Below are positions 3,145-63,530 of a stretch of DNA of 64,000 nucleotides, piece after piece. The DNA lies in the IMG/VR virus record IMGVR_UViG_3300035670_000008, positions 1 through 64,000 of that record. One strand, given 5' to 3'. Position 1 is the first letter of the stretch. Each line of letters starts with the position of its first letter. The DNA comes from a virus. The notes below the pieces were generated by a model that saw only the letters and a list, made by a program, of their open reading frames with translations, was not told the origin of the DNA and searched no databases. A program made the translations under genes and the position numbers.

Positions 3145-3423
3145 TTAAAAGTGACTCCTAACGTATTCAAGCCAGGCGTGAAGAACTGAGTTAGCTAGGT
3201 CTTTGTCGGTCATTGCGCTTAGCTCTTCTTTGTTGTATGAGCCTTCACCGGCCCAGTCGGCTTCCTGCACACACCATTCTCTTTCTTCAGCGGTCATAGG
3301 GCGCAGGATTTCATTAGAGCAGTATCTGTGTAGCATAGCTTCTTTAAAAGTGCATAAGCACCCGTGTTCGGTCTTGTCATAGCCACATGGACACTTGATA
3401 GGGATGTCTTGAAATAGTGCCAT
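3145..3423 (-). CDS. Hypothetical Cys-rich protein, possible zinc site, 92 aa
   Basis: The N-terminus carries CPCGYDKTEHGCLC with two further Cys residues downstream, consistent with a small zinc-binding knuckle. The C-terminal half is helical. It sits in the leftward operon with 4 nt to the upstream gene. Function unknown. Confidence 0.65.
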   Translation of the reverse strand: MALFQDIPIKCPCGYDKTEHGCLCTFKEAMLHRYCSNEILRPMTAEEREWCVQEADWAGEGSYNKEELSAMTDKDLANSVLHAWLEYVRSHF

Positions 3424-3427
3424 ATTC

Positions 3428-3751
3428 TTAGATAAGAGGGTCGCTGTATTGATTCAGTTCTTCTTTATGCTCCCGTAGGTACGTCAAGCACTTCACCAGT
3501 GCCGAACGGGAAAAGTCGGGGCACTCGATGCAGGCCCGGAAGCCTTCGCGGTGGTCACCGTTAAGGATAAAGAAGCACTCCGCGTTGCCTAAGACTAAGG
3601 CAGTGGTATCACAACCGTAGTCCTTACGACTGGAGGGGTGGTTGTTGTAGGAGATATACCAGTGCTTGCTATGGGTATCCACGTCGTCGGTGCGGTTGGG
3701 CACGACCATAGGGATACCGCCCAGCATTTCAAAGTGTCCTGTGTTAGCCAT
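3428..3751 (-). CDS. Hypothetical protein, 107 aa
   Basis: ATG at 3751 (MANTGHFEMLGG) overlaps the upstream gene by 8 nt. A longer frame from 3808 would overlap it by more than 60 nt and is less likely. There are several Cys residues (CDTTA, CFF, CIECPDF) but no clear metal motif. Not recognised. Confidence 0.6.
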   Translation of the reverse strand: MANTGHFEMLGGIPMVVPNRTDDVDTHSKHWYISYNNHPSSRKDYGCDTTALVLGNAECFFILNGDHREGFRACIECPDFSRSALVKCLTYLREHKEELNQYSDPLI

Positions 3752-4013
3752 GGAACACCACCTGGGCGCCGTCGCCAATATCATTGTTAGCCCACACTTC
3801 ATTTCCATTATTGTCGATGGTCTTGAAGAAGATGTAGACAGCGCCGCTGGGCATAGTAACGTACATTAAGTCTTCCTGCACGGCGGCAACTCGTCCTTCT
3901 GACCTGACAGTGCTGCTACCGCAGCCACGCCAGCCGTTAGAAGTGAGTTCCGCGCCGATGTAGTCTACCTCTACGGTGACTTTTTGGTGGAGTAGTTTAG
4001 CTTTGGCTTCCAT
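3744..4013 (-). CDS. Hypothetical beta-rich protein, 89 aa
   Basis: A short beta-rich sequence follows a basic N-terminus. It overlaps the 3' end of the BRO gene upstream by 17 nt, so the two are probably translated from one message. No family recognised. Confidence 0.6.
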   Translation of the reverse strand: MEAKAKLLHQKVTVEVDYIGAELTSNGWRGCGSSTVRSEGRVAAVQEDLMYVTMPSGAVYIFFKTIDNNGNEVWANNDIGDGAQVVFHG

Positions 4014-4821
4014 ATTGGTCTGGGGTAGTAGCGACAGGGGCAGTAATGGTTTCTTCGCCGTATAGCAGCACAGCTAGCGAGTAGAGCTTATCGATAACGC
4101 CGACCTCTTCAGCATAAGACAAGGCTGACTTACGTTGGTTCTTAGCCCGGGTGACTAGGTCAACGTGGTGGCGGTAGCGGTATTCCCGGTACAAGTCTCC
4201 CCACAGTTTTTGGTAGGACTCCCCGGTACGATACGCGTAGCTACGCAGCAGTTCGTTAAGGCTGGAGCGGATGGACTTTTCGGGTACCTCTTCCATAGCA
4301 GCAGGCAGCGCTAGGATTTCCTTATCCACCCGGTCGAAGCGGCCTTCAATCACCTTCAGGCGGGTGTCTTGTTCTAGCAACGCGCGGGCCTGTTCTTGTT
4401 GACGTTGCTCCACGGCGATGATGGCTTCGGCTTGTAGTCTTAACAGCTCGCCGGGGCTTAGAGGTTGTTGGGTGTAGCTTCCGGTCTTACGAATTGCGGG
4501 TAGTACTTCCGAAGTGACCCAGCGTTTAAATGCTTTGGCTTGCGGCTTGTGGCTGCCTAAAACAGCAGAGTAAAGACCGGACTCATTGATGATAGAGAGC
4601 CTGAAAGTATTGCTGCCAAAGGTTTGTCCCAAAATGGGAGAATCCATTCCGTTGGGGTTAATAGTTTGTTTGTCCTCTTCGTCAACATGCTCTAGCAGTT
4701 TTGCAGGGTTTGAATATTCTAGTACAGCGGCTACTTCTTTAGCCACGAACCAAGGTGTGTCGTCAATAGTGATGACGCTAATGGTTTGGGTGTTGAAATC
4801 GAAAGTATTCAGGTTGCTCAT
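3997..4821 (-). CDS. BRO-N domain protein (phage antirepressor type), copy 1
   Basis: Residues 1-110 match the BRO-N fold: VITIDDTPWFVAKEVAAVLEY, then LSIINESGLYSAVL and AFKRWVTSEVLPAIRKTGSY. Such proteins bind DNA and act as antirepressors or regulators in phages and large DNA viruses. A coiled-coil stretch follows, then a C-terminal domain (GESYQKLWGDLYREY, RHHVDLV) that is nearly repeated in the paralogue at 10243-10977. It is the first gene of a leftward operon and is divergent from the island at 4860-6396. Its leader shares TTTCTAAGGA with the leaders of the two BRO-N genes near 11 kb. Confidence 0.85.
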   Translation of the reverse strand: MSNLNTFDFNTQTISVITIDDTPWFVAKEVAAVLEYSNPAKLLEHVDEEDKQTINPNGMDSPILGQTFGSNTFRLSIINESGLYSAVLGSHKPQAKAFKRWVTSEVLPAIRKTGSYTQQPLSPGELLRLQAEAIIAVEQRQQEQARALLEQDTRLKVIEGRFDRVDKEILALPAAMEEVPEKSIRSSLNELLRSYAYRTGESYQKLWGDLYREYRYRHHVDLVTRAKNQRKSALSYAEEVGVIDKLYSLAVLLYGEETITAPVATTPDQYGSQS

Positions 4822-8870: not shown

Positions 8871-9167
8871 ATGGGTCACAAGGTTAAAGTAAGTGCGGTT
8901 CCTCTTGAAGGCTCGGAGATTGCCCAAGGGTTTGATGTTCATTTGTTTGTGGATGACCAGCCGTTTGAAGCTACAAAGCTGACGATTGTAGCTGAAGCAG
9001 GCCGAGCAGTGGTGAAAGCTATTGTAGAGTTTGGGATTAGCGAACTTGAGTTTGACGGCTACCCGGAGACTGCTTTCTTAGCGTTGGGCAGCGAGTCTAA
9101 GTTGACTGCTGAGGAGTATAAGAAAGCTGTGGAAGACCTCCGCCGAGCTGCTTTGGGTTTAGAGTAG
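8871..9167 (+). CDS. Hypothetical protein, 98 aa, single rightward gene
   Basis: ATG at 8871 (MGHKVKVSAVPLEG) is preferred to the in-frame TTG at 8859. An isolated rightward gene between leftward operons. The product is a small alpha/beta protein with an acidic C-terminal helix (TAEEYKKAVEDLRRAALGLE). About 36 nt separate it from the divergent gene at 8834, so promoters for both must be there. Confidence 0.6.
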   Translation: MGHKVKVSAVPLEGSEIAQGFDVHLFVDDQPFEATKLTIVAEAGRAVVKAIVEFGISELEFDGYPETAFLALGSESKLTAEEYKKAVEDLRRAALGLE

Positions 9168-9204
9168 AGCAACTTGAAGTTTTTGCGCATTGCGGCTTCT
9201 CTAT

Positions 9205-9501
9205 CTATTCCCATCGTTTCTGTCTCCATACATCTGTAATCGTTTGCTGGTGGTACCACTCCCAGATTGGTCGGCTGAAGTAGTAATTCCAGTCCAACTC
9301 AAAGCAGTAGCGGTCGTTCCGAATGGTTAGTGCTAAGTAAGATGGGTAGTCCAACCAACTATCAGACCAGCTGACCTTAAAGCAGACCCAACCAATCCAT
9401 AGCTGCGTCCAGGTGTAGCCATTGATAAAGGTCAGAGGGCCTAACTTCAAGGCGATACGGCCATCGCTACTTACTTTTAGAACGTTTTTAGCTTTACCCA
9501 T
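9205..9501 (-). CDS. Hypothetical Trp-rich protein, 98 aa
   Basis: ATG at 9501 (MGKAKNVLKVSSDG) overlaps the upstream gene by 8 nt. The protein is rich in Trp and Tyr (YTWTQLWIGWVCF, FELDWNYYF) and probably beta. Not recognised. Confidence 0.6.
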   Translation of the reverse strand: MGKAKNVLKVSSDGRIALKLGPLTFINGYTWTQLWIGWVCFKVSWSDSWLDYPSYLALTIRNDRYCFELDWNYYFSRPIWEWYHQQTITDVWRQKRWE

Positions 9502-9817
9502 TGCCGTACTCCCGGGCGCTGCCTTCGCAGTAATCCCATTCGTCTTTATACCCGTCATGCCCAAAGTTTTTGGGCTCTGGTCTGTACCGAGCTACCACGT
9601 ATTCCCCAGACTCCGTCCTGAATAGGACTTCGTTTTCAGTGCGGCTGCCGCGGGCATACTCTTCTAAGTCTGCTTCTGCCAGTAGGGTGACGACGTTGTA
9701 AGCAGTCTTTCCTAAGAATTCCCCCCGCAGTAACCAGCTGTAGGGTTTGGAGGAGCCGGGCAGCCCATTGGGGAAGTGGATAAGTTGTTTACCGTTGGCT
9801 AAGTTAATCGTTTCCAT
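9494..9817 (-). CDS. Hypothetical protein, 107 aa
   Basis: A small protein starting METINLANGKQLIHF. It overlaps its upstream neighbour by 14 nt, in keeping with the operon. No motif recognised. Confidence 0.65.
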   Translation of the reverse strand: METINLANGKQLIHFPNGLPGSSKPYSWLLRGEFLGKTAYNVVTLLAEADLEEYARGSRTENEVLFRTESGEYVVARYRPEPKNFGHDGYKDEWDYCEGSAREYGNG

Positions 9818-10238
9818 GTTCGTGTTCCTCCAGTTTCTGTAGTAGGTCTTTTACGTTACCTAAGGCTGCCCAAATCTCTTCGTCGCTGTACTTTAGGTGT
9901 ATAACAATTTGAAGGTCACCGTCATCATAGACCTTTAGTGCGGAGCTGCCAATTCGGTACTCTGGCTCGAAGTTCGTTAAAGGCGGGAGTTGATCTTCTT
10001 TCTCTTTGTAGTCTGCATCTTCATCTATGGCCAGTAGCTCCCAACTGACTCCGTATAAGTCTTCGGCCTTGAAGTACTGGACTTCTTTTAAGAACTTGCT
10101 GACTCTTAAGGCTTTTTCTAATGTTGCCCTGGGTAAGTCACACTCAATGTAATCGGGGGTAGAACCCCACTCGATGTTGCTGTAGGTGACGGCTGTAACG
10201 ACGACAGTGTTAATTTTGAATTTGTAGAATTGTTCCAT
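9804..10238 (-). CDS. Hypothetical protein, 144 aa
   Basis: ATG at 10238 (MEQFYKFKIN) leaves a 4-nt gap after the BRO gene, while the longer frame from 10268 would overlap it. Acidic alpha/beta protein ending in EEHEHGND. Function unknown. Confidence 0.65.
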   Translation of the reverse strand: MEQFYKFKINTVVVTAVTYSNIEWGSTPDYIECDLPRATLEKALRVSKFLKEVQYFKAEDLYGVSWELLAIDEDADYKEKEDQLPPLTNFEPEYRIGSSALKVYDDGDLQIVIHLKYSDEEIWAALGNVKDLLQKLEEHEHGND

Positions 10239-59340: not shown

Positions 59341-60348
59341 TTAGTGTGCCCAGACAGGGGCGATAGCGAACTCGGCTTTGCCTTTAATCTCAGAGCCCAT
59401 TCGTTGGAACATCTTCGTCTGAGTATCTTCCATGACTTGTTTGCACAGCTTCGCCCAATGTAAAGCCTCTTCGTCGTAGCCAAACTTAATCTTGGTGACG
59501 ACGCCGTCCTCGATTTTGCATCCATCCCAATCAACCCAGACTTTGCCGGGGGCTTGAATGAGTACTTCATCGTGACATTGACCTATTAGGGCAGGCGGGG
59601 TTTCTAGGTGGGCGTATGGCTCGAAAGTTTCATCCAACGTAATCATTGATTCTTTTGTTTGTATGCTTGAGAGTCCCTGCACTTGGAAATTAACGGCAGC
59701 TCGTTCTGCGGATTCACCCTCTTTTCCGCCTGCTCTTTCTTCTGCTACCCAGCGATTTACGTTATAACCATAAGGTAGAACGGCGTAGCCGCGGGCTGCT
59801 GCAATCCGACCTACCTCCTCCGCCCACTCATAGTAGCCAGTGTAGGTATTACGGTGGTTCTTAACCCATCCTTCCGCAATCTCTAACTTAACATGGTTTC
59901 GTTCGCTAATAGATTGAACGGTTGATAGGTATAGCATCGCAAAATTCAAAGTTTTTGCTGTGTCTCTGGGGCATCTCTTATCTCCAAAGAGAAAAGCGCG
60001 GGCGATGGCTTCCCACTCGTCTTCAGTTTTACCTACGAATCTTTCAGGAGCTATACAGTTAACGGCTGTTAACGTGTGGTAGTCAGAACGAGGGTTGTTA
60101 TATACTTTCCCTTCAGGAGTAGTTAGTTTTTCTGGAACTAGGAAAGACTCACACATAATTGGGTCTTTCGAGACGACCGCAGCCACACGGATTTCCTGGC
60201 TAGCAAAATCACAGCTAATGATGACCCCACGTTGTGTGCAGAAGCCGTTGCGGGGGTTACTGACAAACTCTAGCTGCTCTACAGTAGGTGCCTGGGCTAC
60301 GCCGGCTGTGGTGCCATTAGATTTAGGTCTGGTTAGTAGTTTACGCAT
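59341..60348 (-). CDS. DNA polymerase family A, C-terminal (fingers/palm) half
   Basis: ATG at 60348 overlaps the stop of the gene at 60348-60548 as TAATG, favouring it over 60399. The 335-aa product has motif A CDFASQEIRV (D47), motif B RDTAKTLNFAMLY (R128, K132, F136, Y140), the QGL/NF segment and motif C QCHDEV (H259, D260, E261). These match Pol I palm and fingers in full. The exonuclease and thumb are in a separate gene at 62148. It must associate with that half to act as a complete polymerase. Confidence 0.92.
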   Translation of the reverse strand: MRKLLTRPKSNGTTAGVAQAPTVEQLEFVSNPRNGFCTQRGVIISCDFASQEIRVAAVVSKDPIMCESFLVPEKLTTPEGKVYNNPRSDYHTLTAVNCIAPERFVGKTEDEWEAIARAFLFGDKRCPRDTAKTLNFAMLYLSTVQSISERNHVKLEIAEGWVKNHRNTYTGYYEWAEEVGRIAAARGYAVLPYGYNVNRWVAEERAGGKEGESAERAAVNFQVQGLSSIQTKESMITLDETFEPYAHLETPPALIGQCHDEVLIQAPGKVWVDWDGCKIEDGVVTKIKFGYDEEALHWAKLCKQVMEDTQTKMFQRMGSEIKGKAEFAIAPVWAH

Positions 60349-60548
60349 TAAACAAAGATATATCGGTGGTCTGGGATTTGACGGATGAGCTCCACGCATT
60401 CGTGGGCAGCTTCCTCGTCTACAAAGATTTTAGCCTTTGAGCGGTCGAATGTTAGCACTGGGCTGATGAACCCACGATTCTTCACAGCACCAATGATAAA
60501 CGCGGCGGCTCCCTGATAAAAAAACGATGGACGAAAATATTTGAACAT
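60348..60548 (-). CDS. Hypothetical small protein upstream of polymerase half, 66 aa
   Basis: TAATG coupled to the polymerase C-half. Sequence MFKYFRPSFFYQGAAAFIIGAVKNRG then a helical end (AAHECVELIRQIPDH). No intein, endonuclease or known accessory motif. It could help bring the polymerase halves together, which is only a suggestion. Confidence 0.55.
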   Translation of the reverse strand: MFKYFRPSFFYQGAAAFIIGAVKNRGFISPVLTFDRSKAKIFVDEEAAHECVELIRQIPDHRYIFV

Positions 60549-60587
60549 AGGCTAGCTTGGGTAATAGAACAGTTTTCTAAGTTTGCT

Positions 60588-60920
60588 ATGGTTTCTTTTT
60601 TCTCTTTTCTTTTAGGTATAGGGGTTTCACTTTTAGTACTAGGTCTTACTGAAGCAGTTATTAAACCACTTGCGACAAAGACGACTAAATACTATATCAA
60701 GGCTTATGTGCCTAAATTATTAGACTATTTAGATGAGTTCTTGCCGGTATGGTTTGGTAACCTGTCGGAGGAAGAAATTAGACAAGAACTTATCCGATTC
60801 CTTTGGACAGAGGCTACAGAACAAGGCGAGCGTATTGAAGAAACTCAAGTAGAGGAGATAATCAACACTGCAGAATCAACTTACTCTTTCTTTAAGAACG
60901 CGTCTAAACTATTAAGCTAA
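60588..60920 (+). CDS. Membrane-anchored protein, possible holin, 110 aa
   Basis: N-terminal hydrophobic helix (VSFFSFLLGIGVSLLVLGL, residues 2-20) is followed by a helical and then acidic C-terminal half (SEEEIRQELIRFL). This resembles LLH-type holins or membrane adaptors. It overlaps the phosphoesterase by one nt on the plus strand, opposite to the polymerase genes. Confidence 0.6.
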   Translation: MVSFFSFLLGIGVSLLVLGLTEAVIKPLATKTTKYYIKAYVPKLLDYLDEFLPVWFGNLSEEEIRQELIRFLWTEATEQGERIEETQVEEIINTAESTYSFFKNASKLLS

Positions 60921-61984
60921 TGTACGAACAACTATCTTTATCTTTGGAAGAAGTCGACCTCGATATTATATTAGACGATGCCGCCCTCCAGAAGGAAAAA
61001 GAAAAGTATAACTTACTCCAACGTAAATATAAGACTGCTTTACGGGAGTTAAGCGATACAAAGCAGAGTCTAGAGATTGCTTTAAGCCTTAAAGCCCAAA
61101 GAGAAAAACTGTCGGTGTGCGCCATTCAAACTAGCGCCTCCGAGACCGAATTACCAGAAGCTATTCCCATCATTATGTGGAGCGACTGGCACGTCGGTGA
61201 GCGGGTAGCCCCCGAGACCGTCGAGCACGTTAACTACTATAGTCCAGAGGTGTGTAGCCGTCGAGCAGACATCCTTTTTGAGAACACCGTCAATACGTTG
61301 CTGATGCTTAAGCATAGCTATACCATCCGTAACGTTATCATCTGGCTTGGCGGGGACTTTATCTCGGGGCATATCCACGAAGAGCTAATGGAGTCTAATT
61401 ATCTATCTCCTCCACAGGAGATACTCTACGTAGCTAACATCCTCAAGCGGGGTATTAACAAGGTCTGTGAGCAAGCTGGAATAGAGGTGGTTCACATCCC
61501 TTGTAACTTTGGTAATCACGGGCGGTTGACCCATAAGACGAGAGCTAGCACAGGGCATATTAACAACCTTGAGTGGATGATGTACTCTTTTCTAGCTCAA
61601 GATTTTGAGGATAACCCAAAGGTCACGTTTATGATTGCTGATGGGCCGATGATTCACTATGAAGTGTTTGACAAGCGCCTACGGTTTACCCATGGAGATG
61701 CAGTTAGCTACAGCGGTAGTGGGATGGGCGGGCCTTCTAATTCCATTCTCCGCTGGATCAACAAGCAGGACGCTAGTTCAATCGACTTTAAAGCCGACAT
61801 GACCTTTCTAGGGCATTTTCATACGACTATATTCGACCGCCGCTTTACTGTAAATAACTGTTTAATTGGAGCTACGCCGTACTCTATCCGGTGCGGCTTC
61901 CCGATTGAGCCAGCAGACCAGGCATTGGTACTTCTAGAGAAAGCTAAGGGGTTTACTTTACGTTATACTGTTGCTGCGGAGTGA
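60920..61984 (+). CDS. Calcineurin-like phosphoesterase with N-terminal coiled coil, 354 aa
   Basis: Motifs: IMWSDWHVGE (D, H), WLGGDFISG, NFGNHGR, FTHGD and LGHFHTT, the metal-binding core of calcineurin-like phosphoesterases seen in many tailed phages. The first 70 residues are a charged coiled coil. In phages these enzymes are often Mre11/SbcD-like or of unknown substrate. No SbcC partner is seen. It sits with a membrane gene between the two halves of DNA polymerase. Confidence 0.88.
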   Translation: MYEQLSLSLEEVDLDIILDDAALQKEKEKYNLLQRKYKTALRELSDTKQSLEIALSLKAQREKLSVCAIQTSASETELPEAIPIIMWSDWHVGERVAPETVEHVNYYSPEVCSRRADILFENTVNTLLMLKHSYTIRNVIIWLGGDFISGHIHEELMESNYLSPPQEILYVANILKRGINKVCEQAGIEVVHIPCNFGNHGRLTHKTRASTGHINNLEWMMYSFLAQDFEDNPKVTFMIADGPMIHYEVFDKRLRFTHGDAVSYSGSGMGGPSNSILRWINKQDASSIDFKADMTFLGHFHTTIFDRRFTVNNCLIGATPYSIRCGFPIEPADQALVLLEKAKGFTLRYTVAAE

Positions 61985-62185
61985 GTTCAAAGCCTGTCTC
62001 CCTTTTTTGGTTAGTTTATACGGGGCCTTACCGAAAATAAGGCCCTTGTTTTTTAGGGTTATAAGGGCCTGAGCGATGTCCGAGCTATCCGTTAGGCAAT
62101 CGACTGGATAGGCAATGCTATCATTTACGCCGAAAGCCAAGAGGACTTCAGTCTCCGCCGGGTTGAGTTGGTTGAATGACTTCAC
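61958..62185 (-). CDS. Winged-helix protein, 75 aa
   Basis: NPAETEVLLAFG, SSDIAQALITLKNKGLIFGKAPYKLTKKGR is the pattern of a winged-helix DNA-binding domain. It overlaps the polymerase N-half by 38 nt and the convergent phosphoesterase by 27 nt. A plus-strand terminator lies within its coding region. A local regulator is likely. Confidence 0.65.
   Translation of the reverse strand: MKSFNQLNPAETEVLLAFGVNDSIAYPVDCLTDSSDIAQALITLKNKGLIFGKAPYKLTKKGRQALNSLRSNSIT
62023..62055 (+). terminator. Rho-independent terminator for the plus-strand pair
   Basis: Arms GGGCCTTA (62023-62030) and TAAGGCCC (62038-62045) with a 7-nt loop are followed by TTGTTTTTT. It ends the transcript of 60588-61984. It lies in the coding region of the opposite-strand winged-helix gene. 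A rival hairpin is formed by 62040-62047 and 62063-62070. Confidence 0.85.
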
Positions 62186-63530
62186 TAGGGAAAAACTCTT
62201 CTTTAGGCATGGTTATCTTACAAGTAGTTCTGCCAGATTGTTGCTGCATGTTGGGAGTTGCGGCCGACATCCGTGACGTAGCGGCGCCCAGCTGGTCATA
62301 AGAGCAATGGATTCGCCCCGTTGCTACGTTGATATACTTCCGTAAGTCCATACCATCCTGTTTAGTGAGCTTTTTGAACTTTAAGATGGCTTTTACTACC
62401 GGGGTTAGTTGTAGCAAGGCGGATTCTTCCAACTCCAGGAACTCGCTGTAGAGTTCAGCCTCTTCTACGTCGACGAATACCTCCTGAGCCGTCTGCTGTC
62501 GGTTCTCGGAGGCGGCGAAGATATCTAAGAGTTCGCAGGCTCGGCGTAGACCCTCTGCCTGGGTGGAGTCAAACTTTTCAAGTTTCAACCCAACGTTAAT
62601 GAGTTTTAGCAGCTCGGTGCTAGACCGAAGGGTGCTAAGCGCTCGACGTGTGGGTTGTTCTTTACCGTTACCTAAATCAATCGGCTGGTCGAGGTTGAAC
62701 TCGTAGCTAAGATAGACTGCGACTTCCTCCATCTCTTGTCTAATTCCTTCCTGGAAGTAACCCATCATCTTCCGGTCGGCTGGCATACCAATGTATTCCA
62801 TTTTGGCGATGACGGAGACTAGGCGCATCTCTCTATCTAAGGACTCCTGCATCCCTAGACCCCAATCGTCGCTGTGGTTACCAGTTTGATTCAGGTCGGT
62901 ATGCGGCATGGGAGTAACTAACGTCTTAGTTTGTATCTCCCGGATGGGAAACAAATACTGTACGTCGTTAGCCGCGTAGGTTAACTTACCCAACCAGTAT
63001 TCGTTCTCCAGGTTTCTACCGCTTAAGTCTAGCGCCCAGCTACTGACTCGCTCTTCTTTCTTCCCGGTGATACGGACGTTGAGTAGCTCTCGACAGATGT
63101 CAGCGTAGCCGTGACCTAACTGTCTAGCGACTTTAGAACCAGTAGCATTACCGATAAGCTTACTAGCCACAACAACATCAAAGACATTCTTGAACCATAC
63201 TCCAAACTCGTTATATAAGAACTTGAGGTCGAATCTCAGGTTTGCTCCCAGGATTCGGTCGGTCTTTAGTAGTAAATCTCGTAGCGGGGCTCTATCGTAA
63301 TCTAGAGCCCGTAGCCACGCTAAGTCAAAAATAAGGGGCTGCCCTTCCGCCCGCTTGAGGATTAGAAGGCTAATCTCAGCTGTATGGGCGTCTAAAGCAG
63401 ACCCTACGGTTTTATACGTCCCGCGAACGGAAGTCTCTACGTCGAGGGCCAGTGCCGCTGTGGAGCTGCTGAGCATTTCAACAGCGGCTTGGTAGTCCTC
63501 TAGGGTGGTGATGTATTTAAAGGAACTCAT
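62148..63530 (-). CDS. DNA polymerase family A, N-terminal (exonuclease/thumb) half
   Basis: The 460-aa product has the 3'-5' proofreading domain ALDVET (D30, E32), NLRFD (D101), and YAANDV (Y185, D189), the DEDDy set. It then continues as the thumb to GRIHCSYDQLGAATSRM and TPNMQQ (405-430), the family A motif just before motif A. It stops there, with a non-matching 30-residue tail. The remaining catalytic part is the gene at 59341-60348. No 5'-3' exonuclease domain is present. Confidence 0.9.
   Translation of the reverse strand: MSSFKYITTLEDYQAAVEMLSSSTAALALDVETSVRGTYKTVGSALDAHTAEISLLILKRAEGQPLIFDLAWLRALDYDRAPLRDLLLKTDRILGANLRFDLKFLYNEFGVWFKNVFDVVVASKLIGNATGSKVARQLGHGYADICRELLNVRITGKKEERVSSWALDLSGRNLENEYWLGKLTYAANDVQYLFPIREIQTKTLVTPMPHTDLNQTGNHSDDWGLGMQESLDREMRLVSVIAKMEYIGMPADRKMMGYFQEGIRQEMEEVAVYLSYEFNLDQPIDLGNGKEQPTRRALSTLRSSTELLKLINVGLKLEKFDSTQAEGLRRACELLDIFAASENRQQTAQEVFVDVEEAELYSEFLELEESALLQLTPVVKAILKFKKLTKQDGMDLRKYINVATGRIHCSYDQLGAATSRMSAATPNMQQQSGRTTCKITMPKEEFFPSEVIQPTQPGGD

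Follow-up and report, generated by a model that had tools for sequence, protein, structure and literature searches.

Two minus-strand genes of the window (the whole 64-kb stretch analysed here, taken from the start of a linear viral record, G000, of 216,563 bp without end repeats) encode the two halves of a family A DNA polymerase. The N half (62148-63530, minus strand; 460 aa) comprises a 3'-5' exonuclease, the thumb and the first palm strands up to PNMQQ; the C half (59341-60348, minus strand; 335 aa) comprises the fingers and the palm and contains motifs A, B and C. Both ORFs lie exactly where the initial annotation had placed them, with two corrections: the N half, said to end just after TPNMQQ, extends past QQ by a 30-aa tail, and the gap, given as about 1.6 kb, is 1.8 kb. 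What is one polypeptide in a family A enzyme is here two ORFs, separated by that distance and with plus-strand genes between them.

The N half matches PF01612 (3'-5' exonuclease; E 4.6e-17) and positions 62-148 of PF00476 (DNA_pol_A; E 2e-10), and the C half matches positions 140-343 of PF00476 (E 1.2e-20). Nothing else in the whole 216,563-bp record matches PF00476; the halves are therefore complementary, nearly without overlap. Among PHROGs, the N half matches an exo-only family (phrog_31382) and the C half matches pol-only families (phrog_35406 and phrog_2573). The catalytic residues of both halves had been judged intact, and indeed all the core motifs can be located: in the N half, the exonuclease motifs (DxE, Nx3D, Yx3D) at D30/E32 (exo I), N97/D101 (exo II) and Y185/D189 (exo III), R420 in ATSRMS, and PNMQQ at 426-430; in the C half, aligned to Taq with phmmer, motif A (CDFASQE, with D47), motif B or the O helix (RDTAKTLNFAMLY, with R128/K132/F136/Y140), N220/Q224, and motif C (CHDEV, with H258/D259). 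The correct start of the pol gene is the ATG at 60348, which gives a basic head, MRKLLTRP..., that aligns with the MKRKRRITTRP... of relatives. Profile searches of the 216,563-bp linear record found no complete PolA, PolB or PolC (a technical note: in the PF03175 search of G000 for a protein-primed PolB, control sequences gave no match either).

Next to the exonuclease gene, and overlapping it, is a gene with a GTG start (61958-62185, minus strand) for a 75-aa winged-helix-like protein (wHTH; weak Pfam matches), which is 36-44% identical to the products of wHTH genes immediately preceding pol in the relatives L098, L032, L099 and L101. The initial annotation had counted this gene in the opposite-strand cassette; its position before pol in those four relatives marks it as a member of the polymerase operon. 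(An 88-aa ORF of L100 was also considered as a wHTH homologue; the assignment is unsupported.) The cassette proper consists of two plus-strand genes. One encodes a calcineurin-like metallophosphoesterase (60920-61984; an SbcD-like "exonuclease", phrog_284, E 3.7e-34) that is 34-36% identical to proteins of cyanophages KBS-S-2A and S-CBS1 and lacks close homologues in eight relatives with a split polymerase. The other encodes a 110-aa membrane protein (60588-60920) with a single hydrophobic N-terminal segment and weak similarity (E 0.002 in one comparison) to the product of an L032 membrane gene that follows the lysin gene. Last comes a 66-aa ORF (60348-60548, minus strand), whose stop codon shares bases with the start codon of pol; a search for its relatives turned up none, and on comparison it bears no resemblance to gp179 of phage Ma-LMM01 (see below).

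For the likely major capsid protein of G000, matches (at 27-30% identity) are confined to Microcystis phages of the Ma-LMM01 group and the Microcoleus phage My-WqHQDG; G000 is therefore a large phage of Ma-LMM01 kinship, and its host is likely to be a cyanobacterium. A nucleotide search against phages gave zero matches, IMG/VR scans using single sequences returned no relatives, and none was seen in a scan of bacterial and archaeal genomes; the IMG/VR relatives discussed here were recovered through alignment queries. (Another feature of G000 is a 6,943-aa ORF at 178373-199204, together with further ORFs of 4,239 and 5,112 aa; these giant ORFs are partially conserved in G001.)

The split polymerase is found in many of these relatives. 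Ma-LMM01 (Fukuivirus) encodes gp180 ("3'-5' exonuclease"), the 51-aa gp179 and gp178 ("DNA polymerase"), an arrangement that is also present in MaMV-DC and MaMV-DH01 and is common to many IMG/VR contigs. Its polymerase is homologous to that of the window and has the same break between QQ and motif A, and in both phages a small ORF separates the halves; on the other hand, identity is only 26-30%, all the Ma-LMM01 genes lie on one strand, and gp179 stands where the window has the wHTH gene, the cassette and the 66-aa ORF. L021, L026 and L023 have the same split (the pol half of L023 is fragmented). In L099 and L101, UvsX, a small gene, exo, wHTH and pol form one overlapping operon, with neither a plus-strand cassette nor a 66-aa ORF; in L100, the halves are 3.6 kb apart and the interval holds IS200/IS605 TnpA and TnpB genes. 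On the L098 contig, wHTH-pol occupies ~40-43 kb and UvsX-exo occupies ~88-92 kb, placing the halves ~45 kb apart; the L098 exo half ends "...NLQQQSGRLQIPVTMPRHLLLT", resembling "...NMQQQSGRTTCKITMPKEEFF..." of the window's N half. L032/G001 is similar to L098. On G001 (205 kb), the exo half was not found; as the neighbouring UvsX gene is missing as well, an assembly gap is the suggested cause, and genuine loss of the exo half was not accepted. When eight records were searched with both profiles, seven proved to have both halves, and a PF00476 scan of the split-form records gave no matches outside the split polymerase. The window's N half is 46% identical to those of L099/L101 and 53% to that of L098, and its C half is 42-67% identical, by segment, to those of L098, L032, L099 and L101. 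Each half shares ~45-55% of its residues with the counterpart from independent phages, so chance is no explanation for the split arrangement.

Searching relatives for the intact gene and for the cassette, as the initial annotation had advised, located the intact gene in My-WqHQDG and L028, the nearest one-chain relatives, and the cassette at this locus in none. Its absence there, together with the place of wHTH directly before pol in the four relatives already named, puts the arrival of the plus-strand pair later than the split: the membrane and metallophosphoesterase genes entered an already divided exo-wHTH-pol operon, between wHTH and pol. The earlier proposal that the cassette, or a mobile gene once inside it, caused the split is contradicted by L099/L101, which have the same split without a cassette, and by Ma-LMM01, whose split accommodates only the 51-aa ORF.

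Where is the chain broken? In phmmer alignments, the break falls between Taq residues ~588 and ~595, past the RxS..PNxQQ strand but ahead of motif A, in the loop that joins NLQNIP to the strand preceding motif A in Taq or Klenow. Alignment and HMM coverage, along with the comparison with Ma-LMM01, agree in placing it between the PNxQQ strand and motif A, with both halves intact. The exonuclease and the thumb come with the N half, as does the Arg that contacts the primer, and the C half supplies both catalytic Asp residues and the O helix; judging from Pol I structures, either half alone should be poor at polymerising. Structures were predicted for single chains, each half separately. The N-half model matches the folds of Klenow and the apicoplast Pol, and the C-half model (pLDDT 84) matches KlenTaq/Bst Pol I in Foldseek. 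In these isolated models, disorder or low confidence affects C-half residues 1-27 and the N half where it meets the junction; the low N-half values there (pLDDT 33-57) could reflect the absent partner or merely a shallow alignment.

Selection on the two genes was gauged by Nei-Gojobori codon comparison of close split pairs. For L099/L101, dN/dS is 0.065 for exo (with synonymous sites near saturation) and 0.11-0.12 for the pol exons; for Ma-LMM01 versus L014/L017, it is 0.085-0.127 for exo and 0.048-0.133 for pol. Both halves are under purifying selection, that is, they are functional genes while split. In the IQ-TREE phylogeny, the split forms (the Ma-LMM01 polymerase included) and two intact ones constitute a clade at 100/100 support. 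The window groups with L098, then L099/L101, then L100; Ma-LMM01, L021, L026 and L023 make up another split group, and the intact pair, L005/L028, falls inside the split clade, nested beside that second group. A single clade of the split rows is rejected (p-AU 0.0009, tested after the tree was seen), which leaves two histories: either the gene split once and was later re-fused in the My-WqHQDG lineage, or it split twice at this loop. The two are equally parsimonious. The N-half tails of the two split groups resemble one another (p ~0.001), and one of these groups also resembles intact L005/L028 there (p ~0.006-0.02), both values being post hoc and from related sequences; these likenesses do no more than suggest one origin, with that between the two split groups leaning towards a single split. 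Taken together, these comparisons show a split that is old and ancestral to the phage lineage. Rather than a broken gene, the group would have a stable enzyme in two parts.

We therefore consider it very probable that a two-polypeptide family A polymerase replicates this phage, with an ancestral split and a later cassette; that the chains bind one another, are active and serve as the replicase is what we infer. Proofreading, by the exonuclease, would fall to the larger chain, which also brings the thumb and the R...PNxQQ strand that contacts the primer; the smaller would contribute the fingers and the catalytic palm. With the chain interrupted in what is predicted to be a surface loop ahead of motif A, the two parts would probably reassemble non-covalently and generate a composite active site, and the opposite-strand membrane and metallophosphoesterase genes were inserted later into an existing exo-wHTH-pol operon. 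The initial annotation had already thought a two-chain enzyme likely, and its case is strengthened: the split is real and under selection, and the ~45-kb separation of the L098 halves makes read-through, frameshifting or cis-splicing into one chain implausible there. A more ambitious version, in which the large-cyanophage clade possesses an obligate multi-subunit polymerase, with the frequently neighbouring wHTH protein perhaps its third part, and in which the gene split once, its halves moved up to ~45 kb apart and were re-fused in the My-WqHQDG lineage, is put forward tentatively and is rather less likely to be right than wrong.

Might the halves work independently, as a free-standing exonuclease and a small polymerase without proofreading? 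The genes of the Ma-LMM01 type have been annotated by their authors as two separate enzymes, and across the split forms the spacing of the two genes ranges from overlap to ~45 kb. Against this, the C half has no thumb, and family A enzymes need the thumb for gripping DNA; a plain exonuclease would have no evident need for the thumb and the conserved Arg/PNxQQ strand that the N half carries; and the two halves occur together in all but one of the records searched with both profiles. Independence is accordingly judged unlikely.

That an intron or split intein interrupts the gene and that splicing restores a single chain is less likely still, in spite of the company that this gene keeps. Group I introns are frequent in it among the relatives: L032:7896-9930 has four inside ~1 kb of pol-half coding sequence, which is unusually dense; L098, L101 and L099 have two, two and one, respectively, several of them below the curated score (in L099 and L101 these intron-like elements are in the pol half); and LMM01-like L018 has one at motif A, also below the curated score. 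In the polA gene of an unrelated phage (L078:7110-7942), a group I intron lies between the exo and pol halves, near the clade's split loop. Inteins occur too: L021:9296-11659 has a full-size one exactly at motif A of its pol half (WAS|CLAADS...VHN|CDFSAQE), and the L098 exo half (L158, G002:88675-90423, minus strand) has a complete ~128-aa mini-intein just ahead of the PNLQQ strand. The window itself looks different. An Rfam scan of its 56-64 kb region up to E 0.5 detected no group I intron, and four ORFs on both strands occupy the interval. The initial annotation saw no split-intein ends at the junction, and its reading holds: by inspection, the tail QSGRTTCKITMPKEEFF... and the head MRKLLTRP... 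are without intein blocks, and Pfam, PHROG and NCBIfam results include no intein family. Post-junction tail and head are, moreover, conserved among split forms and do not look like intein ends, and the exo half of L098, remote from its partner, continues past a complete cis mini-intein to a tail of its own. Finally, that the split gene is decaying, the phage relying on its host's or another polymerase, is barely credible: G000 is incomplete and could harbour an unseen polymerase, and a foreign cassette does lie between the halves, but in close pairs of relatives both halves show strong purifying selection, motifs are intact in the window, and the identity retained across lineages is substantial (~45-55%).

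Split polymerases of this general kind are already known. The arrangement itself is in GenBank (Ma-LMM01 gp178/gp180); both genes belong to the middle expression phase of Ma-LMM01 (PMC5780444), and the Ma-LMM01 and MaMV-DH01 papers present them as separate enzymes (PMC5780444, PMC9927357). Split family A polymerases have been published for the OM43 phages MEP401 and MEP402, as PF01612 plus N-terminal PF00476 and C-terminal PF00476 with a small ORF of unknown function between them, and their authors suspect an intron (PMC10580990). Like the window, these phages have a family A polymerase in two ORFs; unlike it, they are Zobellviridae-like phages of 43 kb, and their polymerase forms a distinct lineage. 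Phage MIJ3 also divides a replicative polymerase between two genes, but its enzyme is of family B and is associated with an intein (PMC6892783). The nearest one-chain relative, DNA polymerase A of My-WqHQDG (OR578706), nested within the split clade, differs in being a single 699-aa ORF with a longer loop at the split point. What is new is the comparative evidence that the clade's two-gene polymerase is old and stable. Two separately annotated Microcystis phage genes become one testable two-chain replicase; a textbook one-chain enzyme would have been retained in two pieces across deeply diverged phages; and a natural split site in family A polymerases is named, which is useful for the design of split or inducible polymerases.

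The split is located in a gene repeatedly invaded by introns and inteins, and because such invasions are so frequent, a mobile intron is plausible as its original cause. Two minor observations concern the surroundings of the gene. Upstream of the polymerase in L032 (1497-3767) is a 756-aa ligase-like ORF with an apparent intein, and in L006, integrase-like and transposase-like genes (3251-4393 and 8895-10103) lie in the replication region, close to UvsX and thymidylate synthase.
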